This document shows positions 15,828 through 54,127 of a DNA stretch of 60,144 bases, in pieces. The stretch lies in assembly GCA_902530595.1 (NCBI GenBank), contig CACAAX010000009.1, forward strand, positions 1 through 60,144, given 5' to 3'. Position numbers and translations under genes: made by a program. Numbering within the stretch: position 1 is the stretch's first letter; every line of letters begins with the position of its first letter. The stretch is from an uncultured Alphaproteobacteria bacterium. Its GTDB lineage: Bacteria; Pseudomonadota; Alphaproteobacteria; Rhodobacterales; Rhodobacteraceae. A model generated the notes under the pieces. The model saw only the letters and a program-made list of their open reading frames with translations. It was not told the DNA's origin and did not search any database.

Positions 15828-17288
15828 ATGGGAAAAGCGCTAATGATTCAGGGGTGTGGTTCCAATGTTGGAAAATCACTTTTAGTCGCTGGGCTTATAA
15901 GAGCGGCTAAGAAACGAGGCCTGCGGGTTGCTCCTTTTAAACCTCAGAATATGTCAAACAATGCTGCTATAACGGTGGACGGAGGAGAAGCTGGCAGAGC
16001 ACAATCATTTCAAGCTTATGCAGCGGGTATTGATTTTCACTCAGACATGAATCCAGTTCTATTAAAACCAGAAAGCATGATCGGGTCTCAGGTTATTTTG
16101 AATGGGAAAAAATATAAATCTCTGAAAGCACGGGAGTATTATTCTCATAAAGATAAATTTATAGGGATAGCAATAAATAGTTTTACGAATTTGGTTAATG
16201 ACTATGATCTGGTCATTGCAGAAGGCGCAGGTAGTTTAGCAGAAGTTAATCTCAGAAAGGCTGATATTGCAAACATGGGGTTTGCTTCAGTTTTGAGTGT
16301 TCCTGTAATAGTAGCAGCAGATATTGAAAGAGGCGGGGTTATTGCTCAGCTTATAGGTACAAAAGAAGTCCTTGACCAAAACGACATAAACTTAATTGAA
16401 GGGTTCATTATAAATAAGTTTCGCGGAGACAAAAGTTTGTTTGATGATGGGGTTGCCTTCATCGAAAAGAAAACAGATTGGAAGAGTTTTGGGGTTATGC
16501 CCTTCTTTGACAAGGCAAAATTATTTCCAGCAGAGGATAGTCAAGATCTGAAGAATAGTTTCGGCACCGGTAAGTGCGTAATTTCGGTCTTGAAGTTATC
16601 TCGTATCGCAAACTTTGATGATTTTGATCCTCTCAAAATTGACAATCGATTAAAATTACAATTTGTCGAACCTGGCAATCCTATACCAGCAGATACGAAG
16701 TTGATTATAATACCAGGAACAAAGTCAACAATAGCTGACCTAAAATTTCTTAAATACCAAGGCTGGGATATCGATATTAAGGCGCATTACAGAAGAGGAG
16801 GTTCTATATTGGGAATTTGTGGCGGTTACCAAATTTTAGGTAACGAAATAATAGATGATCAAGGATATGACGGTACACCATCGAAAGCAAAAGGCCTTGG
16901 CCTCCTAAACGTTAAAACAAAAATGGGGAAAGAAAAGAATCTTGGAAAAAAAGAATTTATCAGCACTATAAATGGGAAAAAAATTTCTGGTTATGAAATA
17001 CATCTGGGTATTACTTCTGGAAGTGATTGTAATAATCCCTTCGCCATTTTAGGCAACAGAAAAGATGGTGCAATATCGTCTAATAGGCTCGTTATGGGCA
17101 CCTATCTTCATGGCTTATTTTTTTCTGACGAATTTAGAAATAACTTTGTAGCTAAATTAAGTTCAGAAGAGAAAAAAGAAGACATCTCTTTCCATGACAG
17201 TATTGAATTTATTTTAGAGGAATTTGTGAGAGTAATAGAGGATAATCTTGATGTTGATTCAATATTATCTGTTGCCAGGAATATCTAA
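15828..17288 (+). CDS. cobQ: Cobyric acid synthase CobQ
   Basis: A 486-residue glutamine-dependent amidotransferase that amidates side chains b, d, e and g of adenosylcobyrinic acid a,c-diamide. The P-loop-like MIQGCGSNVGKSLLVAGL opens the dethiobiotin-synthetase domain. FKPQNMSNN and EGAGSLAEVNLR are conserved. The glutaminase domain has ILGICGGYQILG (nucleophile Cys) and GTYLHGLF (His). Its stop codon directly abuts the stop of the convergent cobC (TAATTA at 17286-17291). Confidence 0.95.
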   Translation: MGKALMIQGCGSNVGKSLLVAGLIRAAKKRGLRVAPFKPQNMSNNAAITVDGGEAGRAQSFQAYAAGIDFHSDMNPVLLKPESMIGSQVILNGKKYKSLKAREYYSHKDKFIGIAINSFTNLVNDYDLVIAEGAGSLAEVNLRKADIANMGFASVLSVPVIVAADIERGGVIAQLIGTKEVLDQNDINLIEGFIINKFRGDKSLFDDGVAFIEKKTDWKSFGVMPFFDKAKLFPAEDSQDLKNSFGTGKCVISVLKLSRIANFDDFDPLKIDNRLKLQFVEPGNPIPADTKLIIIPGTKSTIADLKFLKYQGWDIDIKAHYRRGGSILGICGGYQILGNEIIDDQGYDGTPSKAKGLGLLNVKTKMGKEKNLGKKEFISTINGKKISGYEIHLGITSGSDCNNPFAILGNRKDGAISSNRLVMGTYLHGLFFSDEFRNNFVAKLSSEEKKEDISFHDSIEFILEEFVRVIEDNLDVDSILSVARNI

Positions 17289-34414: not shown

Positions 34415-35780
34415 GGAACGCACAGACTTTTTGGACCGAGATCAATTAAGACTTTATTTCGAGCAAGGGTGTAAACCTCATTCGGAATGGGGGATAGGGT
34501 CGGAGTATGAAAACTTTATTTTTGATACAGATTTAAATAGACCTGTTGCATATGAGGGGCCTAAGTCTATTTCAAAAGTTTTCGATGTGTTGATCAAAAA
34601 ATTCGGCTGGGCACCATTATTTGAGAAATCAAAAATTGTTGGCCTTGAGAAGGACAAAGCAAATATAAGTTTGGAGCCAGGGGGACAGTTTGAGCTATCA
34701 GGTGCTATAAAAAAAAGTATTCATGAAGTTGACCAGGAAATGAAATCTTTCATACAAAATATGAAAGTTGTCTGTGAAGAATTAGGCTTGAGATTGTTTT
34801 CAATTGGTGCTGCACCCAATTGGGAAAGGGATGACATGCCCATAATGCCAAAAAATAGATACAAAAAAATAATGATGCCTTACATGAAAACAGTTGGAAC
34901 TCAAGGTTTAGATATGATGTTGAGAACTTGTACCATACAAGTGAATCTTGATTACTCTTCGGAGGCGGATATGGCAAAAAAGCTTCGAGTCGCCGCATGC
35001 ATACAACCCCTTGCAACCGCTTTGTTTGCGTCTTCCCCCATCTTTGAAGGTAAAAATACTGGTTATCAGAGCTGGAGAGCACAGATATGGAAGAATACAG
35101 ATAGTGATAGAACAGGCATTCCAAAATTCATTTTTGATGACGATCTGAGTTTTGATAGTTGGATTGAATATGCGTTGGACGTACCCATGTATTTCATAAA
35201 GAGAGATGGAGATTATGTGAATCTGTCTGGCGAATCTTTTCGAATGTTTATGAAAGGTCAGTTGAAATCCTTACCAAATCAAAGAGCTACCTATTCTGAT
35301 TGGATTGACCATCTGACGACAATTTTCACAGATGTTCGTTTAAAAAATTTCATTGAAATGAGAGGTGCGGATGGAGGGCCGAGTCAAAATGTAACGGCAT
35401 TAGCCGCAATGTGGGTCGGGCTACTATATGATAGCGACTCACTGGATAATGTTTTTAATTTAGTTAAAGCTCTTGATTGGGAGTCAGTCAATGAGTTAAG
35501 TATTGATGTTTGTAAACATGGTATGAACGCAAAAATTAACGATAAGACTTTATGGGAATTTGGTGAAGAAGTTCTTAACATGGCACAAAGTGGATTACAA
35601 AATCGAGGCTCAGCTCACGATATCAAAGATGAAACTCTATTTTTAATGCCATTATTAGAACGAGTGTCAAAAAAACAATCTCTTTCAAGTCAATTAGCGA
35701 ATAAATTTGACAGCAAATGGAAGAACAATTTTTCTACTTTTTATGATGATTTTAATTTTTATCACGGCCTTCGAAACTAA
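34404..35780 (+). CDS. gshA: Glutamate--cysteine ligase GshA (plant/alphaproteobacterial type)
   Basis: A 458-residue enzyme catalysing the first step of glutathione synthesis. The ATG at 34404 (MKTEERTDFLDRDQL) is chosen over an in-frame ATG at 34359 deep inside rsmE. The segments GIGSEYENF, LEPGGQFELSG, MMLRTCTIQVNLDY and EMRGADGGP are typical of the class shared by plants and alphaproteobacteria. The 3' end overlaps the convergent plsY by 29 bases. Confidence 0.95.
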   Translation: MKTEERTDFLDRDQLRLYFEQGCKPHSEWGIGSEYENFIFDTDLNRPVAYEGPKSISKVFDVLIKKFGWAPLFEKSKIVGLEKDKANISLEPGGQFELSGAIKKSIHEVDQEMKSFIQNMKVVCEELGLRLFSIGAAPNWERDDMPIMPKNRYKKIMMPYMKTVGTQGLDMMLRTCTIQVNLDYSSEADMAKKLRVAACIQPLATALFASSPIFEGKNTGYQSWRAQIWKNTDSDRTGIPKFIFDDDLSFDSWIEYALDVPMYFIKRDGDYVNLSGESFRMFMKGQLKSLPNQRATYSDWIDHLTTIFTDVRLKNFIEMRGADGGPSQNVTALAAMWVGLLYDSDSLDNVFNLVKALDWESVNELSIDVCKHGMNAKINDKTLWEFGEEVLNMAQSGLQNRGSAHDIKDETLFLMPLLERVSKKQSLSSQLANKFDSKWKNNFSTFYDDFNFYHGLRN

Positions 35781-36342
35781 GTTCCTCTTTCTTTAAAAGA
35801 CGCTTAATATTTTCTGAGTGTTTGAATAAAATAAATATACTCAAAAGAAGTGCTGATAATTTTATTGGTGAATTATCACAAAAAAACAATAGAAAAAAGT
35901 TTGATAAAACTATAGCGCTTATTCCTGCGACTGAAGACTTTCTTGTTAAATAAAATACCGTTATCCATGTCAATAAAGTCAAGCCACCAACGACAGAGCT
36001 GTAAGATAATAATGCTCCCAAAAAGGTTGCCACCCCTTTTCCACCTTTAAATAGTAAATAAATAGGAAAAATATGTCCAAAAACCACCGCCAGTATAGCT
36101 AGGTAAATTAGATCTGTTTCGATGTATGATGCAATAAAGACCGCAAAGAACCCTTTAAACATATCAAAGAAAAGCGTGAAAGCTGCTGCTTTTTTGTTTC
36201 CACTCCTGAGAATGTTAGTAGCTCCGATATTTTTTGAACCAAATGTTCGGGGATCTTGAATTTTAAAAAAAAATTTTCCAACCAAACCAAATGGTATTGA
36301 TCCTATAAGATAAGCTACAAAAATAATGACAAAAGCCGACAT
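35752..36342 (-). CDS. plsY: Glycerol-3-phosphate acyltransferase PlsY
   Basis: A 196-residue membrane acyltransferase using acyl-phosphate to acylate glycerol-3-phosphate. The three PlsY motifs are seen: SIPFG near the N terminus, GSKNIGATNILRSGN, and FKGGKGVATFLG. I use the ATG at 36342 (MSAFVII); a longer frame to 36393 would overlap the upstream gene. It lies 7 bases after the dihydroorotase-like gene, in the order pyrB-pyrC'-plsY. Confidence 0.94.
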   Translation of the reverse strand: MSAFVIIFVAYLIGSIPFGLVGKFFFKIQDPRTFGSKNIGATNILRSGNKKAAAFTLFFDMFKGFFAVFIASYIETDLIYLAILAVVFGHIFPIYLLFKGGKGVATFLGALLSYSSVVGGLTLLTWITVFYLTRKSSVAGISAIVLSNFFLLFFCDNSPIKLSALLLSIFILFKHSENIKRLLKKEELSFEGRDKN

Positions 36343-36349
36343 CACACTA

Positions 36350-37633
36350 TCATACTTCAAACGAATTTTTTTTAAAAATAATTTCGCCCTCAACCATTGT
36401 TAACAAGTTTTCACCTTGTAAATTAAAGCCATCAAAAGGCGTATTTTGCGATTTTGACCGAAACTGGAATCGATCGATTTTCACCGGTTTATCTGGGTCA
36501 AAAATGATAATGTCCGCTGGCTGACCTTCGTCTAGACACCCCAAACTCTTCTTAATAATATTTGCTGGGTTGAAAGCTAATAATCTAAAAAGCTGATTAA
36601 GACTTAATATCTTATTGTGATATAGCGAAAGAGATGCAGGTAATATTGTTTCAAGACCTACGGCACCCGGTGCGGCCTCTTCAAAAGGGAGCCTTTTGCT
36701 TTCCTCATCCTGAGGTGTATGCATGGAGCAAATATTATCAATCAGTCCTTCTCGTATCGCTTCCGTCAAAGCCTCTCTGTCAGCGTTACTTCTCAACGGT
36801 GGTTTTAATTTAAAAAACGTTCTATAGTTCCCTATATCAAGTTCATTGAATAAAAGATGGTGAACAGAAGTTCCGGCCGTTATACGGTTGTTTGTCGATT
36901 TTATATCTCTTAGCACGTCTAAGCCGATTTTTGTCGTAACTTGGTCTGCGTGATAACGGATGTTTAAATTACTGATCAGCGCTGTGTCGCGTTCTATTCC
37001 AATCTTTTCTGCAAAATCAGGGCTGGATGAAAGTCCTTTAATTGATGCAAAAACTCCGTTTGTAGCTGAGGTATTTTTTGTTAAAAAATAGTCTTGAGGA
37101 TGTCCTATGATGAGGGTATTGAAATCAGAGGCATATTTCAAAATTTGGTGAAAAATTTTTGTATTAGGGATTGAGTTAAAGCCATCAGTAAATGCAACAG
37201 CACCGCCATCATGAAGGAAGCCAATTTCTGTCATCTTTTTCCCATTATTTCTTTTTGTTAAAGATGCAGTAGGAAATATTCTAACCTTACTAGCTTCTTT
37301 ACCTCTATTTTTAAAAAATTCTAGTAGTTCTGGATTATCTATTGAAGGCTTTGTATCTGGACGGGTTACTAAACTAGTGACACCTCCAGCGGCAGCAGCA
37401 CTGCTAGCAGATCTGAAGCTTTCCTTATGTTTCTCTCCAGGCTCGCATACCTTAACCCCAATATCTACGATACCGGGTGCTAAACACATTCCTTTGCAAT
37501 CGATTACCTTACCTTTAATTCCATCATCTTTCTTGTCTATTAATCCACCAGTTATTGTTAAAGTCCCTGCCGTTTCTATTTCTACTTTAGGATCAATTAA
37601 TCTTGCATTTATAAATGTAATTTGTTTTTCCAT
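36350..37633 (-). CDS. pyrC: Dihydroorotase-like protein, metal site lost (PyrC'/PyrX type)
   Basis: A 427-residue amidohydrolase-fold protein next to pyrB. Active type I dihydroorotases have D-x-H-x-H-x-R-E-P-G. Here the same place reads VDIGVKVCEPGE, so both metal-binding histidines and the Arg are gone. The late TDHAPH-type motif is replaced by CSMHTPQDEE. Other conserved blocks (AAAAGGVTSLVTRPDT, FFKLKPPLRS) remain. In several bacteria such non-catalytic homologs are structural partners of aspartate transcarbamoylase, which is the most likely role here. An active dihydroorotase must then be encoded elsewhere. Confidence 0.88.
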   Translation of the reverse strand: MEKQITFINARLIDPKVEIETAGTLTITGGLIDKKDDGIKGKVIDCKGMCLAPGIVDIGVKVCEPGEKHKESFRSASSAAAAGGVTSLVTRPDTKPSIDNPELLEFFKNRGKEASKVRIFPTASLTKRNNGKKMTEIGFLHDGGAVAFTDGFNSIPNTKIFHQILKYASDFNTLIIGHPQDYFLTKNTSATNGVFASIKGLSSSPDFAEKIGIERDTALISNLNIRYHADQVTTKIGLDVLRDIKSTNNRITAGTSVHHLLFNELDIGNYRTFFKLKPPLRSNADREALTEAIREGLIDNICSMHTPQDEESKRLPFEEAAPGAVGLETILPASLSLYHNKILSLNQLFRLLAFNPANIIKKSLGCLDEGQPADIIIFDPDKPVKIDRFQFRSKSQNTPFDGFNLQGENLLTMVEGEIIFKKNSFEV

Positions 37634-45690: not shown

Positions 45691-45760
45691 AATTTTGTTC
45701 CTCTAATTTGGTAACTCTATTAATTTTATGCATATTTTTTTTTTCAATCTATAATTAAGA

Positions 45761-46326
45761 ATGATTTATGAAAACTATAAAGGAAAATTATTGATTTCGT
45801 CGCCAGAAATTTCGGATGGTGTTTTTGATAAAAGCATAATTCTTATTTGTGAACATAATGCTAATGGCGCGATGGGTTTTATTTTAAATAAGCCCCTTAT
45901 AGATGTTAGCCTAGAGCAAATATGGACTAATATAGGCTACAAAAAAAAAAATCATACTTAACTAATGAAGACGTATTTATGGGTGGCCCCCTAGCATCAA
46001 ATGCGATGTTTGTGATCCATTCGCCTGAGTACTTTATAGACAAAAAAACGATTAAGGTTTGTGAAGAAATTTCTGTAACAGGTACTAAAGAAATTACAGA
46101 TGACATCCAGAAAGGAAAGGGGCCTAGAAAAGCAATTTTTTTACTAGGTTATTCTGGCTGGGCGCCGGGACAATTAGAAGATGAAATTATGATGGATAGT
46201 TGGTTTGTATCAGAGAAATTCCAAAACCTTATTTTCAGCGTCGATCATCAAACGAAGTGGACAGATGCTTTATTACTCATAGGAATTGATCCCTCTAAAT
46301 TATCCTCGTATGCTGGATCCTCCTAA
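45761..46326 (+). pseudogene. yqgE: YqgE/AlgH family protein, interrupted by a frameshift at an A11 tract
   Basis: The first frame (from ATG 45761) encodes GKLLISSPEISDGVFDKSII and EHNANGAMGFILNKP, then stops at 45958-45960 after a run of 11 A (45941-45951). The rest of the family sequence continues in the -1 frame, giving VFMGGPLASNAMF, LLGYSGWAPGQLEDE and IGIDPSKLSSYAG. One extra A restores a 188-residue protein, the usual YqgE length. Either the gene is broken, the A count is a sequencing error, or slippage on the tract rescues it. The intact downstream frame argues against old decay. YqgE function is not firmly known. Confidence 0.85.
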
Positions 46327-46332
46327 ATTTCA

Positions 46333-47286
46333 CTATTGAGCTACTGCTCTCATTAGCCTATCGTTTATCGCTGCTCCCACACCAATTGATGGTATAGGAG
46401 CTACTTTTATAGGAATTCCACCTTTAGATTCGCTCAATCGATCTAAAATATGAAGAAAAGTGAAAAGGTTTTTTGCGGCCTCTTCTAAGTTCTTTGACTC
46501 AGATAGTGTTAATCCATCAATCTCTTTTGGATGAGGCCCGAAACTTAAAAATATATCTCCTCTATTAGGTTTATTTTGATTTAAAAGTAAGTTAGCATCT
46601 GGTGAATAGTGCTTTAACAATTGTCCCGGACTTTTTATCTGTTTTTCTGATTGCAAGCTGGGGGCAATTTCATATTCTAAGAAACTAGATATTTCATCAA
46701 GCGTAATATTTCCAAATCTAAGAATACAAGGTTTTTCTACTGAGCAGTCGACTACTGTGCTTTCAAGTCCTAGTTCGGCATCACCTCCATTGAGAAGAGC
46801 ATCTATGCTATTTTTTAATTTAGCAAATACATCTCCTGGATTTGTACAGGTAAGCTTCCCAGATTTATTCGCTGAAGGCGCAGCTATAGGTTTTCCTAAC
46901 TCTTGTATCAATCTGCTCGCAATAATGTTATTTGGACATCTTAAAGCTATAGTCTCTAGTTTCGCAGTAGCCGCTTCGACTACTTTCGATTTCTTTTTTT
47001 TTACTATTATGGTTAAGGGTCCAGGCCAATACTTTTTTACAAGTTTTTCAGCTGTATAATTGAAAATCCCATATTCCTTTGCCATTTCGTAGCTAGACAC
47101 ATGAATGATTAGCGGGTTGAAACTTGGCCGTCTTTTTATTTCATATAATTTTGTCACAGCCTTTTTTGAGAAGGCGTTTGCACCGAGCCCATAAACTGTC
47201 TCTGTGGGGAACGCAACAATACCATTACCAGCTAAAATCTCTGCTGCTTCTTTAATACCTGCAAAAGTATTTTCAATTATCTTCAT
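46333..47286 (-). CDS. Threonylcarbamoyl-AMP synthase (TsaC/Sua5 type)
   Basis: A 317-residue enzyme making threonylcarbamoyl-AMP for the t6A37 tRNA modification. The YrdC domain has FPTETVYGLGANA, KRRPSFNPLIIHV, TIALRCPNN and IAAPSANKSGKLT. A C-terminal Sua5 domain (about residues 210-317, with SPGQLLKHYSPDA as the linker) follows, so this is the long Sua5 form. A 9-base A tract (VKKKKS) stays in frame. It is convergent with yqgE, with a 6-base gap. Confidence 0.94.
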   Translation of the reverse strand: MKIIENTFAGIKEAAEILAGNGIVAFPTETVYGLGANAFSKKAVTKLYEIKRRPSFNPLIIHVSSYEMAKEYGIFNYTAEKLVKKYWPGPLTIIVKKKKSKVVEAATAKLETIALRCPNNIIASRLIQELGKPIAAPSANKSGKLTCTNPGDVFAKLKNSIDALLNGGDAELGLESTVVDCSVEKPCILRFGNITLDEISSFLEYEIAPSLQSEKQIKSPGQLLKHYSPDANLLLNQNKPNRGDIFLSFGPHPKEIDGLTLSESKNLEEAAKNLFTFLHILDRLSESKGGIPIKVAPIPSIGVGAAINDRLMRAVAQ

Positions 47287-47369
47287 TTGGACAATATGAC
47301 ATGTTGATTTGTAGAACTTTAAATACTAGAGTTCATTTATTAAATCAATTCATTAAAGAGTAAAAAAGA

Positions 47370-49112
47370 ATGAGTTATACCGCCCCAATAGATGAAACAA
47401 AGTTTTGGCTATATGAAATACTGGAGGCAAAAAGGCTGTTCTCTCTTTCAAATTTCCGTGGTTTAAAGAAAGACGATTTGGATCTAATTCTAAGTGAGGC
47501 TGCTAAAATCACATCGGAAAGTATTTATCCTCTCAATCAGAAATCAGACCAAAGTCCAGCAAAGCTAGAAAATGGAGTATGTCGAACAACGCCGGGCTTT
47601 GCAGAAGTATACAAGCTTTTAATTCAAGGTGGTTGGGCAGGTATTTCTGGTGATCAGAAATACGGAGGGATGGGCTTACCATCCATAGTCACAAGTTGCT
47701 TCAATGAATATTTTGGCAGTGCGTGCCTTTCATTTTCGTTACTGTTTTTAATGAATCAGGGTCAGATAGATGCTCTGGAAAATCATGGTAACGAGGATAT
47801 AAAAAATATCTTCTTACCAAAATTAAATTCCGGGGAATGGACCGGTACTATGAATTTAACCGAGCCACATGCGGGTTCAGATGTTGGAGCATTAACAACT
47901 AAAGCAGAAAAAAATAGTGATGGGTCTTATGCGATTACTGGCCAGAAAATATATATTAGTTGGGGTGAACATGATCTATCAAATAATATATGTCATTTAG
48001 TTCTGGCAAGATTACCGAAGTCTCCAAAAGGATCAAAAGGCGTTTCCCTTTTTATTGTGCCTAAGTATATCCAAAATCAAGAGGATGAGTGGCTTTTAGA
48101 AAACAATGTCAAGGCGATTTCGCTCGAAAAGAAAATGGGCATGCATGGATCTCCGACGGCTATAATTGAATATAGACAATCACGAGGTTGGCTGGTCGGG
48201 GATGAAAACGCTGGGTTACACGCAATGTTTACGATGATGAATAATGCTAGGCTGGGTGTTGGGATCGAAGGATTATCGCAGAGCGAATTAGCCACACAAA
48301 AGGCTTTAGAATTTGCAAGAAACCGAAAACAGGGTCACGCAAAAATTGATAATAGGAAGGGTGTTATTCTGGATCATCCAGATGTGCGAAGAATGCTCAT
48401 AACAATGAAATCGCTAACAGCAGCTGTCAGGGCTTTATGTCTTGACGCTGCACTTTCTCTCGATCTTTCTAAGTCAAATGATAAACAACTTGCGAGCAAA
48501 GAGAGTGCAAGGGCCTCATTTTTAATTCCAATAGCTAAAGCATTCTCTACAGATATTGGATGTCGAGTAGCTGATATTGGCATACAAGTCCACGGAGGAA
48601 TGGGTTACGTGGAAGAAACAGGAGTAGCACAGGTTTTCCGTGATGTCAGAGTAACTGCTATTTACGAAGGGACCAATGGCATCCAAGCTATTGATCTTAT
48701 TGGAAGAAAATTGGCTGATAACGGAAAAGCTGCCAATGGGCTCATTGATGAAATAAAAATAACAATTAGCAATTGTAGTAATCATGAAGATCAACAAATA
48801 AGGGAGATGGGAAATAGATTATCTAAATCCTTGGTATGTTTGGAGAGCACCTTGAATTGGATGCTAAAACAAGAAGATTTTAATAATAGACTTGCAGGTG
48901 CAACTCCTTTCTTACAAGCTTTTGGAATGATTTTAGGTGCAAATTATTTAGTTAAGGCAGCGATGAAAACTGAGGCAATAGATAGAAAATCACTAGCTCA
49001 ATTTTATTGTGTAAATATTCTGCCGGAAATGGAAGCCTATGGAGTTATAAGTCAAAGTGGACAGAAATCGCTTTATAATTTTACAGACAATTTTTTTGGG
49101 TTTTCTCAGTAA
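47370..49112 (+). CDS. Acyl-CoA dehydrogenase, DmdC-like (3-methylmercaptopropionyl-CoA dehydrogenase family)
   Basis: A 580-residue long-form acyl-CoA dehydrogenase with an extra C-terminal domain. The N terminus MSYTAPIDE, the FAD motif TMNLTEPHAGSDVGAL and the active-site Glu in YEGTNGIQAIDLIGRK match the group that includes DmdC of the DMSP demethylation pathway. Without dmdA, dmdB or dmdD nearby, the substrate could equally be another acyl-CoA. The stop overlaps the MBL-hydrolase ATG by 1 base, so the two are coupled. Confidence 0.85.
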   Translation: MSYTAPIDETKFWLYEILEAKRLFSLSNFRGLKKDDLDLILSEAAKITSESIYPLNQKSDQSPAKLENGVCRTTPGFAEVYKLLIQGGWAGISGDQKYGGMGLPSIVTSCFNEYFGSACLSFSLLFLMNQGQIDALENHGNEDIKNIFLPKLNSGEWTGTMNLTEPHAGSDVGALTTKAEKNSDGSYAITGQKIYISWGEHDLSNNICHLVLARLPKSPKGSKGVSLFIVPKYIQNQEDEWLLENNVKAISLEKKMGMHGSPTAIIEYRQSRGWLVGDENAGLHAMFTMMNNARLGVGIEGLSQSELATQKALEFARNRKQGHAKIDNRKGVILDHPDVRRMLITMKSLTAAVRALCLDAALSLDLSKSNDKQLASKESARASFLIPIAKAFSTDIGCRVADIGIQVHGGMGYVEETGVAQVFRDVRVTAIYEGTNGIQAIDLIGRKLADNGKAANGLIDEIKITISNCSNHEDQQIREMGNRLSKSLVCLESTLNWMLKQEDFNNRLAGATPFLQAFGMILGANYLVKAAMKTEAIDRKSLAQFYCVNILPEMEAYGVISQSGQKSLYNFTDNFFGFSQ

Positions 49113-50149
49113 TGAAAAAGATAGACTTTGTATTTCAGGAAAGTCCTGAAGCTGGGGAACTATATCGGATTACTGAAGGCGTATATTGGTTTCCGATGCC
49201 TCTGCCTATGATGGGACCTGACTATGTGAACTGCTACATTTTAGATGACGGGCAAGAAATAGCATTGATAGACACAGGCGCAAACATTGGAGACTCTAAA
49301 CACATATGGGAAAATACTCTTAAAAAAAATTTTCCTAACAAAAAGATTAGTAATGTATATGTAACACACCATCATCCCGACCATATCGGTTTGGCTGGGT
49401 GGCTATGCAAGAAGTACAATACTGAAATGATTTGCTCTCGTACTGCCTATTTGATGGCTAAGATGCTTTCCCTCGATGTACATGAAAAGGTTAGTACGAG
49501 TACAGAGCTCTTTTGGAAGCAGGCAGGTATGTCTCAACAAATGCTTGAGGAAAAACTTAGAGCTAGACCTTTTAATTTTGGCGATGGTGTTTCACCGCTA
49601 GACAAAGGTTTCATAAGAATTAGTGAGAATGAAATTATTACTATAAATGGACTCGACTGGACCGTAAGTATGGGAAATGGGCACGCTCCTGAGCATGCAA
49701 CTTTTTGGTCAAAAGAGTTAAATTTGGTTCTTGCTGGTGATCAGGTTCTGCCCGGAATTTCATCTAACTTGGGCGTTTATCCTACAGAACCGAATGCAGA
49801 TACCGTAGGTGATTGGATAAACAGCTGTAAGAAATTTCTTGAGCTAGCTAGCGATGAGCACATAGTCTTACCTGGTCACGGCAGACCATTTTCTGGACTA
49901 CCTCGAAGACTTGTACAGTTAATTGAAAATCATGAAGCAGCTCTTAAAAGGATAAAGGAAGCCTTAGAAGTAGAACCAAAAACTGCTGTGGAGCTATTCA
50001 AGACAATATTTAAAAGGGATATTAATAAGAGAGAATATATGCTAGCATTACATGAAGCAGTCGGACATGTTAACCATCTCCATAAAACTGGGTTAGTTAA
50101 TAGACGTGTTAGGCAGGACGGAGCATTTATTTTTGAATTGATAAGGTAA
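49112..50149 (+). CDS. MBL-fold metallo-hydrolase
   Basis: A 345-residue metallo-beta-lactamase-fold hydrolase. The zinc motif THHHPDHIGLAG (HxHxDH) lies near residue 86-97. Further ligands are likely in GNGHAPEHA and LAGDQVLP, and in LPGHGRPFSG. The C-terminal winged-helix-like domain (about residues 270-345) is seen in LACTB2-like hydrolases. Its translational coupling to the acyl-CoA dehydrogenase suggests a thioesterase-like or related role in the same pathway; this is an inference. Confidence 0.88.
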   Translation: MKKIDFVFQESPEAGELYRITEGVYWFPMPLPMMGPDYVNCYILDDGQEIALIDTGANIGDSKHIWENTLKKNFPNKKISNVYVTHHHPDHIGLAGWLCKKYNTEMICSRTAYLMAKMLSLDVHEKVSTSTELFWKQAGMSQQMLEEKLRARPFNFGDGVSPLDKGFIRISENEIITINGLDWTVSMGNGHAPEHATFWSKELNLVLAGDQVLPGISSNLGVYPTEPNADTVGDWINSCKKFLELASDEHIVLPGHGRPFSGLPRRLVQLIENHEAALKRIKEALEVEPKTAVELFKTIFKRDINKREYMLALHEAVGHVNHLHKTGLVNRRVRQDGAFIFELIR

Positions 50150-50164
50150 CTAGGAGTTCTACAA

Positions 50165-50296
50165 TTGAATTACAAAAAAGGTGAGATGGATATAGAAGAG
50201 CAAAAGAAAATTTACTCTGGTTTCATAAAGTTTTTATTCGCTATAGTGGCGTTTTCAACATTTTCTTTGATTTTTTTAGCGCTTTTTAATTCGTAG
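50165..50296 (+). CDS. aa3-type cytochrome c oxidase subunit IV (small)
   Basis: A 43-residue protein in the gap after the MBL hydrolase. It starts at a TTG with AGGAG 8 bases upstream (50152-50156). It carries the family signature GEMDIEEQKKIYSGF followed by one transmembrane helix ending LIFLALFNS. This matches the bacterial aa3-type oxidase subunit IV that packs against the CoxABC core in Paracoccus and Rhodobacter. The other oxidase genes are not in this window; a detached subunit IV gene is normal in the group. Confidence 0.88.
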   Translation: MNYKKGEMDIEEQKKIYSGFIKFLFAIVAFSTFSLIFLALFNS

Positions 50297-50307
50297 TAGA
50301 CCTTTGT

Positions 50308-50514
50308 TTACAGTAGGCCTTCTCTTATCATTTTTTTTCTAGCTAACTTTCTTGCCCTTCTGACAGCTTCGGCCTTCTCTCTAGCTTTCTTCACGGACGG
50401 TTTTTCAAAATGCTGTTTGAGCTTCATTTCCCTGAAAACTCCTTCTCGTTGTAGTTTTTTTTTCAGGGCTCTTAAAGCTTGCTCAATGTTGTTATCTCTG
50501 ACGTTTACTTGCAC
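50308..50514 (-). CDS. rpsU: 30S ribosomal protein S21
   Basis: A 68-residue basic protein with the family N terminus [19 protein letters not shown], central [16 protein letters not shown], and an Arg/Lys-rich helical C terminus. It is convergent with the oxidase subunit IV gene, with an 11-base gap that could hold only a weak imperfect hairpin (AGACCT/AGGCCT). It is transcribed from the 92-base gap shared with the quinone reductase gene. Confidence 0.96.
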
Positions 50515-50606
50515 GCATGAATCCTTATAAAGTTATGAAGATCATGTGTATCAAGACACTCAGTGCTTGTCTACAAAAATAATGACTAAATAAGGAAAAA
50601 CAAGAT

Positions 50607-51590
50607 ATGAAAGCAGTAATTATTAAAAAGTATGGGGATTTGGGGGGTTCAATTTTAAAAACAGGCATAGAGATCCCACGACCAAGTCAACACGAGGTGT
50701 TAATCAAAGTTAAAGCTGCAGGGGTGAATCGCCCTGATATTTTGCAAAGACAAGGGTTATATAAAGTGCCAAGCGACGCTAGCCCAATCATGGGATTGGA
50801 GGTCGCTGGAGAGATAGTTGAAGCTGGCGAAGATGTAACAAAAACAAAGATAGGAAAACAAGTTTGTGCATTAGTACCCGGAGGTGGCTACGCGCAATAT
50901 GTTCTAACAAATGAAGCACACTGTCTTCCAGTTCCTAGGGGTTTATCCATGGAGAAAGCTGCAGGCTTATGTGAGTGTCTTTTCACAGTTTGGATTAATG
51001 TAGTAAAGTTAGGTCAATTAAAAGAAAATGAAAGATTTCTTGTCCATGGTGGGTCTAGTGGTATAGGAATGTTTGCAATACAAGTGGCAAAGCAATTGGG
51101 AGCAACGGTACTAACGACGGTAAAAAACCAGGAAAAGTCAGATTTTTGTTACTCGTTAGGGGCTGATGAAGTTGTCCAATATTCTAAACAAGACTTTTAC
51201 AATATTTTTAAAAGTAATAATGAGGGACGAGGTATAGATTTGATTTTAGATATGATTGGGGGTGACTATTTTGAAAAAAATATTGACCTTTTAAATCAAG
51301 AAGGAAGGCTGGTAAATATTGCTTTTCTAAAAGGCAACTCTGTAAAACTAGACTTAAGTAAATTAATGATGAAGAGAATTAATTTAACCGGTTCCACTCT
51401 TAGACCTAGGACGACCGAATTTAAAAGTAAAATCGCAGACGAATTGCGCGAGACTGTTTGGCCCTTATTGGATACAAATAAAATCAGAGTTCACATAGAC
51501 TCTGTATTTCCATTGGAAAAATTCAAAGATGCCCATATGCGGATGGAAAATGGAAATCATTTGGGTAAGATTATATTAAGTCTTGATTGA
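50607..51590 (+). CDS. NAD(P)H quinone oxidoreductase (PIG3-type, MDR superfamily)
   Basis: A 327-residue medium-chain dehydrogenase/reductase of the quinone oxidoreductase group. The GVNRPDILQRQGLY motif is the hallmark of the PIG3-like subgroup. The nucleotide-binding loop is VHGGSSGIGMFAIQ. No zinc ligands are seen. It would transfer electrons from NADPH to quinones, probably as a detoxifying enzyme. It is followed by trcR. Confidence 0.92.
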   Translation: MKAVIIKKYGDLGGSILKTGIEIPRPSQHEVLIKVKAAGVNRPDILQRQGLYKVPSDASPIMGLEVAGEIVEAGEDVTKTKIGKQVCALVPGGGYAQYVLTNEAHCLPVPRGLSMEKAAGLCECLFTVWINVVKLGQLKENERFLVHGGSSGIGMFAIQVAKQLGATVLTTVKNQEKSDFCYSLGADEVVQYSKQDFYNIFKSNNEGRGIDLILDMIGGDYFEKNIDLLNQEGRLVNIAFLKGNSVKLDLSKLMMKRINLTGSTLRPRTTEFKSKIADELRETVWPLLDTNKIRVHIDSVFPLEKFKDAHMRMENGNHLGKIILSLD

Positions 51591-51662
51591 TAGATGATTT
51601 TTTTTGTATAAAGCATAATAAGATAAGAGCTAAAAGCAAATTAAAATGTTAGAGAGGAATGG

Positions 51663-52283
51663 ATGGAATACCCACTTATGAGGAAGGCTACAGCGGTTTG
51701 GCTGTTAGACAATACAACTCTTACTTTTAGGCAAATAGCAAGCTTCTGCGGGCTTCATGAATTAGAAATTAGTGGGATTGCCGACGGTGAAGTGGCGGGT
51801 GGTATTCGTGGAATTGACCCCATTATCAATAGTCAACTTACTGTAGATGAGATAAAGAAGTGTGAAGCCAATGAAGACTTGGATCTTCAGCTTTACAAGA
51901 ACCCAGCTGCGGTTGGAGAGAAAAGATCTAGGGGCCCTAAGTATACGCCTCTTTCTAAAAGACAAGATAAACCAGCAGCCATAGCCTGGCTTGTGAAATT
52001 TCATCCAGACATAACCGACGCACAAATCTCCAGACTAATCGGTACTACAAAAAATACGATTAAGGCTATAAGGGAAAGAACTCACTGGAATATAAATAAT
52101 CTTACGCCAACTGATCCAGTAATATTAGGACTTTGTAAACAAATAGAACTTCAGAAAGTACTAGATAAGATACCCAGAAAAATTTCTAATGAAGCACAAG
52201 TCAATGAGATTTCCGAAACAAAAATAGGTGTTGTAGAACCTTCCCAAGCTCTATTTGGTGAAAATACTGATAAAGAACATTAA
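51663..52283 (+). CDS. Cell cycle transcriptional regulator TrcR (DUF1013)
   Basis: A 206-residue DUF1013 protein, restricted to alphaproteobacteria. The N terminus MEYPLMRKATAVWLLDNT(T)LTF resembles a helix-turn-helix start. Two such segments are visible: TFRQIASFCGLHELEI and ITDAQISRLIGTTKNTIKAI. RSRGPKYTP is conserved. In Caulobacter the homolog (TrcR) is a nucleoid-associated cell-cycle regulator. AGAGG lies 5-9 bases upstream of the ATG. It helps fix the taxonomic placement. Confidence 0.92.
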   Translation: MEYPLMRKATAVWLLDNTTLTFRQIASFCGLHELEISGIADGEVAGGIRGIDPIINSQLTVDEIKKCEANEDLDLQLYKNPAAVGEKRSRGPKYTPLSKRQDKPAAIAWLVKFHPDITDAQISRLIGTTKNTIKAIRERTHWNINNLTPTDPVILGLCKQIELQKVLDKIPRKISNEAQVNEISETKIGVVEPSQALFGENTDKEH

Positions 52284-52303
52284 ATTAGGTAAGGGAAAAG
52301 TAT

Positions 52304-53110
52304 TTAGTAGGCAGCCTTCTCTAGTTTATTCAAAATAGATCGACCCCCATCAATTGTGATTACCTGACCTGTTAGGAAGCTAGCACCTTCAGATGACAAA
52401 AATAGAGCAAGTTCTGCTACTTCTTCGGGTTCAGCAATATACCCCAACGGTGTTGCATCAATTATTGAGTCTTGTAATTCAGGGTTGCTATGAAGATTTA
52501 ATCGCAAACTTGAACTCATAATACTACCAAGAGATATAGCATTTACTCTTATTCCATTTTTTGCCAGCGATACGGCAAGTGATCTAGTCAATTGGTTCAA
52601 GGCTGCGCAACTTACAGAGTATGGCATCATGTCGGGTATTGTTTGATTGGCAGCTATAGAAGTCAAATTTATTATCGAACCAACAATCTCACTATTTTTT
52701 CTATTTTTAGTTTGCTTAATCACTGACTTTGCAAAAAGTTGACTTACGTTCAAGGTCGCGATTAAATTTTGTGAGATAGACTTCTCGAGAGCTCCCCCTT
52801 TTTCATCCAATGGGTTTGAAGGGATGATGGCTCTATTAGCATTGACCAAAATATCTACTTTTTCATATTTATTTAATGTTGTTGCAATTAGATTATTGAT
52901 AGCCAGTTTATCTTGCATATTTCCGTAGAAAGAGTGAGCGCTCCCACTGTCTAAGGGAACTCCAGAGATTAAGCTTTCAAGATCAAATTTAACATAATCT
53001 GAAAAAACAACATTTGCTCCAGCTAAAAGAAACTTTCTGCCAATTTCCATTCCTATTCCATTTGACGCTCCCGTAATAATGGCAGTTTTATTCTGTAAGT
53101 AGTTAAGCAT
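52304..53110 (-). CDS. SDR family oxidoreductase with catalytic Lys replaced by Cys
   Basis: A 268-residue classical short-chain dehydrogenase. The cofactor loop is TGASNGIGMEIG, and the C-terminal LTGQVITIDGGRS closes the fold. The active-site Ser (INLTSIAA) and Tyr are present. The Y-x-x-x-K motif, however, reads YSVSCAALNQL: the Lys position is Cys (TGC near 52606). The surrounding residues are otherwise normal. Activity is doubtful, or the chemistry altered. The substrate is unknown. The gene stands between trcR (convergent) and the rsmC-like gene. Confidence 0.85.
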   Translation of the reverse strand: MLNYLQNKTAIITGASNGIGMEIGRKFLLAGANVVFSDYVKFDLESLISGVPLDSGSAHSFYGNMQDKLAINNLIATTLNKYEKVDILVNANRAIIPSNPLDEKGGALEKSISQNLIATLNVSQLFAKSVIKQTKNRKNSEIVGSIINLTSIAANQTIPDMMPYSVSCAALNQLTRSLAVSLAKNGIRVNAISLGSIMSSSLRLNLHSNPELQDSIIDATPLGYIAEPEEVAELALFLSSEGASFLTGQVITIDGGRSILNKLEKAAY

Positions 53111-53114
53111 ACTG

Positions 53115-54127
53115 TTACCTCTTGATTTTTGGTTTTAGTAATTGACAAACAAAATAGTGATTATCCTTGTACAAAATCTTAATATTATCGAAGTAATTTC
53201 GAAGTTCATTTTCCAAATATACTCCTGATACAAAAACCATCCAAACACTACCTTGGTGTGTTATTAACCTAGAGCTGTAGAAGATAAAGGATCTTAGTAA
53301 ACCCATATCTTTAGGGCGTCCAGAGTGAAAAGGAGGATTGCAAATTACATGATTGAACCGTGCTTTTAAGTTTTTTATATTATACAGGCTAGCCCATCTA
53401 AATTTTGCTCGTTCATCATCTATGTTTTTTTTTGATGCAAGATATGCAGAATAATTACTTTCAAATAACGTAACTTTCGTAATTTTATCATTTAACCTAA
53501 GCGCTTCTTTACTCAAATATCCCCATCCAGCCCCTAAGTCAGCAACTTCTCCAAATAATTTTCCGTTGAATGCTGAGGTAAGTTTTTTAGAACCTTTATC
53601 TATCTCTTTTGGAGAAAACATATCGCATCGGGTATAATAGCCATCTCTATTTATATGAAAATCTTGATATTTTTTCCAGTGGCTAAATTTTTGTTTTTTT
53701 TTTTGTATATTGCTATCCTACCTTTTTTTTTAACCATCGTATGCTCTGCTGGCCAATGGTTAGAAATATTTTTGAGAAAACTTTTGACACCAATTTGATT
53801 ATCACCATTTATAATTAACTTTCCTTCATCCTTTATATACTCCTCAGCCAAGGCTATAAGACCCAAATTAGTTTCTTTGCTTTTTGTCAGCTCGAGAATA
53901 ATAATGTCGTAGTAGTGTTGCAAAATAGTGGAAATTACAAAACCTAAACCTTTAGCCTCCCTCAAAGAATCTTTTATATTTGAAATAAAGTGGTACAAAT
54001 CTTTATCCTGTAAGCAGTTAAAGTTTTGTGGTTGATCAGAACCTATAATAGCTACTTTTTGGCCTAAATAAGATGGTGCCACTTGGCTCCAAAATGTTTC
54101 AAACCTTTGGCTTGCAAGACTATGCAA
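53115..54127 (-). pseudogene. RsmC-like class I SAM methyltransferase, interrupted by a frameshift at an A11 tract
   Basis: The upstream piece (54127 to a stop at 53651) has the N-terminal pseudo-methyltransferase domain (VAIIGSDQPQNF). The downstream piece carries the SAM motif VADLGAGWGYLS and the catalytic motif CNPPFHSGR (NPPF). They are in different frames. The break is at a run of 11 A on the coding strand (T11 at 53694-53704). One extra A joins them through QKFSHWKK...HINRDGYYTRCDMFS, the expected linker, giving about 337 residues. The start TTG is 1 base after the clpS stop, with GGAG upstream. The target is probably rRNA guanine. Confidence 0.85.

Follow-up and report, generated by a model that had tools for sequence, protein, structure and literature searches.

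Frame breaks at long A/T runs in yqgE, rsmC and tsaB of an uncultured marine alphaproteobacterial genus, and their possible rescue by slippage

Can a gene whose reading frame is broken at a long run of A residues still be expressed? The question is raised by a 60,144-nucleotide stretch of DNA from an uncultured alphaproteobacterium (GenBank assembly GCA_902530595.1, contig CACAAX010000009.1; hereafter the window), in which two genes, yqgE and rsmC, are each split into two frames at a run of eleven A residues (A11). Contig C9 of G000, a 62%-complete genome of 1.36 Mb in 51 contigs, makes up the window, whose base counts give a GC content of 36%, making it AT-rich. Our comparison set comprised 22 genomes of one genus, numbered with the prefix G and all of them incomplete; the relatives of G000 were deposited as Alphaproteobacteria or Rhodobacteraceae, are uncultured, marine and AT-rich and, going by their names, presumably come from seawater samples. 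On the evidence of this comparison, frame breaks in otherwise conserved genes of the genus lie in long A/T runs in the regions compared, and we consider it rather probable that slippage at such runs, probably by RNA polymerase, keeps some of the broken genes expressed, obligately so in the case of tsaB, a gene on another contig.

The window has just two A/T runs of 11, those in yqgE and rsmC (Table 1). As an earlier, sequence-only reading of the window had stated, each is preceded by an in-frame TAC codon, starts at a codon boundary and needs one more base, the downstream half continuing in the −1 frame; no other TAC-A11 occurs in the 1.36 Mb of G000. The two halves of each gene match one family, PF02622 for yqgE and an RsmC-type methyltransferase for rsmC. 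A start of its own for the yqgE 3′ half, at ATG 45979, is disfavoured, the codon being ATA in the related genome G004, and one scan found no viral relatives of this half. The next longest run in the window is a T10 at 45735-45744, just 5′ of yqgE, whose length of 10 is kept in 5 of 10 relatives.

Table 1. Parts of the two split genes of the window, with the evidence for each.
Feature	Position	Strand	Evidence
yqgE (YqgE/AlgH, DUF179) 5′ half, frame 0, stop soon after tract	45761..45961	+	Open reading frame list; PF02622 profile positions 1-43
A11 after TAC, frame junction of yqgE	45941..45951	+	G002, G006 and G016: GAG-A8 there, frame intact
yqgE 3′ half, −1 frame	45955..46326	+	PF02622 profile positions 58-157
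rsmC-like methyltransferase 5′ half, frame 0	53651..54127	−	Open reading frame list; PF08468 (MTS_N) 24.9 bits, under cut-off 27.3
A11 (T11 on + strand) after TAC, frame junction of rsmC	53694..53704	−	Relatives' open frames of 364-383 codons
rsmC 3′ half (MTS domain), −1 frame	53115..53690	−	PF05175; NF007023 (RsmC) and NF011577 (RlmG) both under cut-off

Both breaks recur, with identical tracts, in G004. Over the 37.7 kb that we compared, G000 and G004 have no indels between them and are 99.8-99.9% identical, and we therefore take them as two separate genomes of one species; their agreement confirms the consensus at both sites, yet counts as one evolutionary event, not two. Elsewhere in the genus yqgE was matched in 12 members; in every one of them its frame is intact, at 190 codons, and the run at this site is shorter, with Tyr followed by GAG before it in nine. 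In the best alignment with these relatives, the base was lost from a CC dinucleotide immediately 3′ of the A run, not from the run itself, since loss of an A would cost two extra substitutions; this placement is by parsimony only, contraction of an A run being the likelier kind of indel. In rsmC the corresponding slot is 12 nucleotides long in close intact relatives, filled by A12 (G016 and G017), C-A11 (G007, G020 and G012) or CCC-A9 (G003 and G006). Each gene thus has a single frame break, located in a long A/T run, and is otherwise intact, the base lost from yqgE lying perhaps just 3′ of its run.

These are also the only frame breaks in the window relative to G006 and G016. Among 68 open reading frames (ORFs) of G006, 65 matched the window at 70% identity or more, of which 62 were full length, two frame-broken and one cut by a contig end; for G016, 66 of 69 matched, 62 at full length, with three rows representing yqgE and rsmC and one cut by a contig end. 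A smaller comparison, of 228 ORFs from 11 relatives with 203 matching the window, again returned yqgE and rsmC alone, and against two relatives neither gene contained a second frame break. That the breaks of the window coincide with its two longest coding runs is more than chance would give.

The strongest candidate for recoding is tsaB. In G000 this minus-strand gene is split by a coding-strand T10 (C1:61855-61864; L003:1502-1511). The gene was matched in 18 of the 22 genomes (in G009 as two pieces, at only about 70% identity), giving 19 loci with a second one in G011, and all 19 carry an exact T10 and one frame relation. Frame 0 stops 13 nucleotides past the run in 17 loci and 28 nucleotides past it in G012 and G001. 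In the 17 loci measured, the −1 frame is open from only 2-5 nucleotides before the run. Both halves are under purifying selection: over 17 of the 19 loci, the median ratio of nonsynonymous to synonymous substitution rates (omega) was 0.175 for the N-terminal half and 0.192 for the C-terminal half, from 119 usable pairs of 136 in each case. The two loci of G011 (C39 and C23; L135 and L150), 92% and 80% identical to the species of the window, both have T10; G011 is perhaps a mixed bin.

The TIGR03725 profile has one match in G000, the C-terminal half of tsaB. Reading through the T10 extends the match from positions 41-211 to positions 2-211 of 212, at 65.8 bits; because this is under the cut-off of 69.3, the assignment as TsaB rests on that coverage together with PF00814, which is above its cut-off in the C-terminal half. 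Among genomes of the family, one per genus, 116 of 120 scored over the TsaB cut-off; as read from the table, those below are G000, G070, G082 and G156, and the state of tsaB was examined in G000 alone of these. A wider search left 23 of 394 genomes with no match. We read 58 loci from other genera (some genomes twice): 47 carry the N-terminal motif in the same frame, one lacks the GPG motif, and ten have 65-121 open codons upstream with no run above 5, which is explained by our N-terminal motif having been too strict.

A third broken A11 of G000 lies in smr, identified by a PF01713 match to the Smr domain (C24:11564-11574; L128:1565-1575). Its tract starts inside an ATA codon and varies from A8 to A12 across genomes. 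Past the tract, the frame is −1 in eight of 14 genomes, shifted the other way in two (G003 and G005) and continuous in four (G017, G014, G013 and, with N's, G011), leaving smr out of frame at the tract in 10 of 14. By eye, the N-terminal piece stays alike among genomes.

Long runs are not in themselves a mark of breakage. G000 has 33 runs of at least 10, including runs of 12 and 13: eight are inside intact genes (L005, L007, L009, L010, L014, L020, L026 and L129), five are in broken genes (yqgE, rsmC and smr with A11, tsaB with T10 and a DUF1932 gene with A10), and the remaining 20 are, by eye, intergenic or at gene ends. Across the genus, 145 A11 tracts were counted and 110 examined. Because 28 of these run in frame through genes, A11 alone marks no break; four are real breaks (yqgE, rsmC, and smr in G010 and in G005), nine further flagged tracts are gene ends, starts or overlaps (six read, three assigned from an identical context), and the rule of the script did not place the other 69 within a gene. 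That shorter coding runs are intact, as the sequence-only reading had observed in the window, was borne out in G000, where a script placed 68 of 100 examined exact A9 tracts (133 in all) inside long open frames and inspection by eye found no clear break among the other 32.

Two expectations raised by the window, that breaks fall only at long tracts and that they always need one added base, fared differently. The first holds in the window and has one exception in G000, the DUF1932 gene (C21; L029:1181-1660), a decaying gene that has, besides its A10, several indels and a stop off the run; the aligned relatives are free of these lesions, save for one other single-base insertion in G014, and no match was found in G004. 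The second fails genus-wide, in the smr genes of G003 and G005 and in a further gene of G016. The window copy of the latter (35755-36393, − strand), which we take from its sequence to be PlsY-like, is intact with a coding-strand T9 at 36265..36273 (−), whereas the G016 ortholog is broken at a T10 (L425, about 16356-16363) in the direction opposite to yqgE and rsmC; in G006 no break of this gene was flagged.

How might such breaks be tolerated? The breaks in yqgE and rsmC are real and belong to a single species, having arisen there at long poly-A tracts. RNA polymerase would slip by one nucleotide at a long A/T run, so that some transcripts carry a continuous frame. Useful YqgE and RsmC may be supplied in this way, and tsaB would be the obligate case, full-length TsaB being made only through slippage or −1 ribosomal frameshifting. 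Transcription insertions, 80% of them of a single nucleotide, are reported to prevail at A/T runs and to rise exponentially with run length, and deletions there to be seldom seen (PMC5574713). A one-base insertion joins the halves of tsaB, yqgE, rsmC and eight of the ten broken smr alleles, a direction that fits transcriptional slippage. We infer both that slippage occurs and that it is transcriptional, favouring this form because the direction of insertion fits and because no unusual RNA fold was seen downstream of the tsaB run in the four loci folded. The genome-wide slippage tolerance suggested from the window is partly supported, by tsaB, with T10 in all 18 genomes where the gene was found, and by smr; tsaB illustrates it better than yqgE and rsmC do, and its proposed signature, TAC-A11, does not hold up. 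It seems an even matter whether the whole genus makes TsaB only through slippage at the conserved T10, slippage setting the amount of the protein, with yqgE, rsmC and smr as later, looser uses.

The case for that signature was that one design recurs in two unrelated genes. Relatives have other tract lengths at both sites, and the third broken A11, in smr, has another phase. Comparison with the intact relatives makes a Tyr codon older than the run in both genes. Among the 60 tracts of at least seven A residues in ORFs of the window, 15 start at phase 0; by our own arithmetic, two tracts would share some phase with a probability of about 0.37, and a shared direction is a matter of 1 in 2. The shared codon and phase do not convincingly exceed chance, and on these comparisons they are most likely inheritance plus coincidence. 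We therefore rejected TAC-A11 as a common design and give the match itself little weight.

Several points weigh against rescue by slippage. The authors of PMC5574713 detected no instance of a frame being restored by a transcription error. In smr of G003 and G005, and in the PlsY-like gene of G016, a one-base insertion would not join the halves. The genomes being incomplete, a second tsaB elsewhere is possible in some of them. Conservation of the T run, tried as stand-alone proof for tsaB, is weakened in that five of nine conserved Phe columns elsewhere in the gene are all TTT. Nine runs of at least 9, from the final 16.6 kb of the window, served as a control for tract length: each keeps its exact length in at most 7 of 11 relatives, but some runs of 8 are unchanged in 10 of 10 or in 10 of 11. 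Given this control and the Phe columns, what carries the argument for tsaB is the conserved break together with selection acting on both halves, and not just the run.

The substitution counts in the broken genes weigh the same way. Between G000 and G004, yqgE and rsmC together differ at five positions, four nonsynonymous and one synonymous, against 18 nonsynonymous and 32 synonymous differences in intact ORFs (Fisher p 0.15); the rate of difference, 5 in 1579 bp versus 50 in 34739 bp, is also raised (p 0.09), and the coding parts of smr that were compared show three nonsynonymous and no synonymous differences. The counts for yqgE, rsmC and smr lean towards relaxed constraint, not rescue. Together with the restriction of the yqgE and rsmC breaks to one species and the decayed, multi-lesion DUF1932 gene with its A10 in the same genome, they make it a serious possibility, though one we hold short of even, that yqgE and rsmC are simply pseudogenes of recent origin: probably dispensable genes, hit by replication indels at A tracts and drifting with no rescue. 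Omega between G000 and its relatives (0.11-0.17) is slightly higher than among the relatives (0.10-0.16), in four of four gene parts. That it is barely raised counts against decay, although such values mostly measure the time before the break; the lack of any further frame break in either gene points the same way, and drift leaves tsaB unexplained. At present yqgE and rsmC may be either rescued at a low level or in an early stage of loss.

The halves could instead be joined by −1 programmed ribosomal frameshifting on the tracts, as in dnaX of Escherichia coli. The heptamers A_AAA_AAA and U_UUU_UUU or U_UUU_UUC stand in zero-frame phase, such motifs are reported to shift in E. coli (PMC4066793), and the direction suits tsaB, yqgE and rsmC. 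We nevertheless think this unlikely. The likeness to the dnaX type lies in the in-phase slippery heptamer, but the 81 nucleotides downstream of the tsaB tract showed no unusual RNA structure in the four of 19 loci folded, which represent three distinct sequences (z-scores of −0.56, 0.65, −0.56 and 1.38, from folds that leave out pseudoknots), and the smr and PlsY-like genes broken the other way speak against it as well.

Phase variation, in which the DNA tract changes length between cells and turns yqgE and rsmC on and off, would suit the differences between species in tracts of at least 9, but G000 and G004, two genomes, both have A11 at both loci, and we judge it improbable. Least of all do we credit a technical artefact, the systematic calling of 12 bases as 11 that the sequence-only reading had offered as its alternative: sequencing errors are common in long A runs, and both assemblies of the species may come from one technology, but G000 and G004 agree, A12 is called in frame at rsmC in G016 and G017, runs of 12 and 13 are called in G000 and in-frame A11 tracts elsewhere in the genus, the base lost from yqgE lies outside the run by parsimony, and the T10 of tsaB is also found in relatives matching metagenome-derived records.

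Returning to slippage, known systems resemble the proposed one in part. Slippage in insect endosymbionts was reportedly described by Tamas et al. 2008. Poly(A)-run slippage in two such endosymbionts, Buchnera and Blochmannia, is reported to correct 12-50% of transcripts (PMC5009743); those genomes are likewise AT-rich, with conserved genes broken at long A runs in a direction that one added base corrects, but their hosts are insects, whereas here the relatives are from seawater, the tsaB break is genus-wide and rescue is proposed from genome sequence. In Thermus thermophilus dnaX, transcriptional slippage at an A9 also yields mixed frames from a homopolymer in a conserved gene, although there the DNA frame is reported to encode the full-length product and both products are useful (PMC1088944), whereas the DNA frame of tsaB encodes a short N-terminal piece. 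Citrobacter rodentium tssM is, by the title of the report (PMC4256274), another interrupted gene rescued by transcriptional frameshifting, in this instance one gene in one species.

Judging by titles and the opening lines of abstracts, we found no published report of recoding in tsaB or yeaZ and, among the matches listed, none of slippage in marine or streamlined bacteria, which is no proof of absence from print in either case; the terms 'yeaZ' and 'Smr' do not occur in the main text of PMC3711429.

What would follow if these genes are expressed by slippage? Annotation would tend to label them pseudogenes and to record synthesis of the tRNA modification threonylcarbamoyladenosine (t6A) in the genus as incomplete. 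In most bacteria tsaB is essential, and loss of t6A raises frameshifting. In the E. coli system, TsaB is reported to be among the proteins required for t6A formation in vitro (PMC4330362). Were tsaB obligately recoded, a probably essential gene would have relied on slippage while at least 18 genomes diverged, and would have done so outside the insect symbionts in which correction was reported; slippage tolerance in AT-rich plankton would then be testable with metatranscriptomes. Some AT-rich genomes are suggested to suppress slippage (PMC1088944), and this lineage would be the opposite case. A bolder extension supposes that a ribosomal step has a part in the process: too little TsaB could then lead to more recoding of tsaB, a feedback resembling the one known for RF2.

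Two further observations concern A11 tracts. What appears to be a single gene carries an in-frame A11, with no break, in seven genomes (L317, L337, L352, L381, L389, L399 and L418). In G000, two A11 tracts lie 45 nucleotides apart in a spacer between genes that by eye are hemE-like and aroE-like (C24:7919 and C24:7964; L031 and L032), and the pair keeps the same spacing in G004 (C1:232455 and C1:232500).

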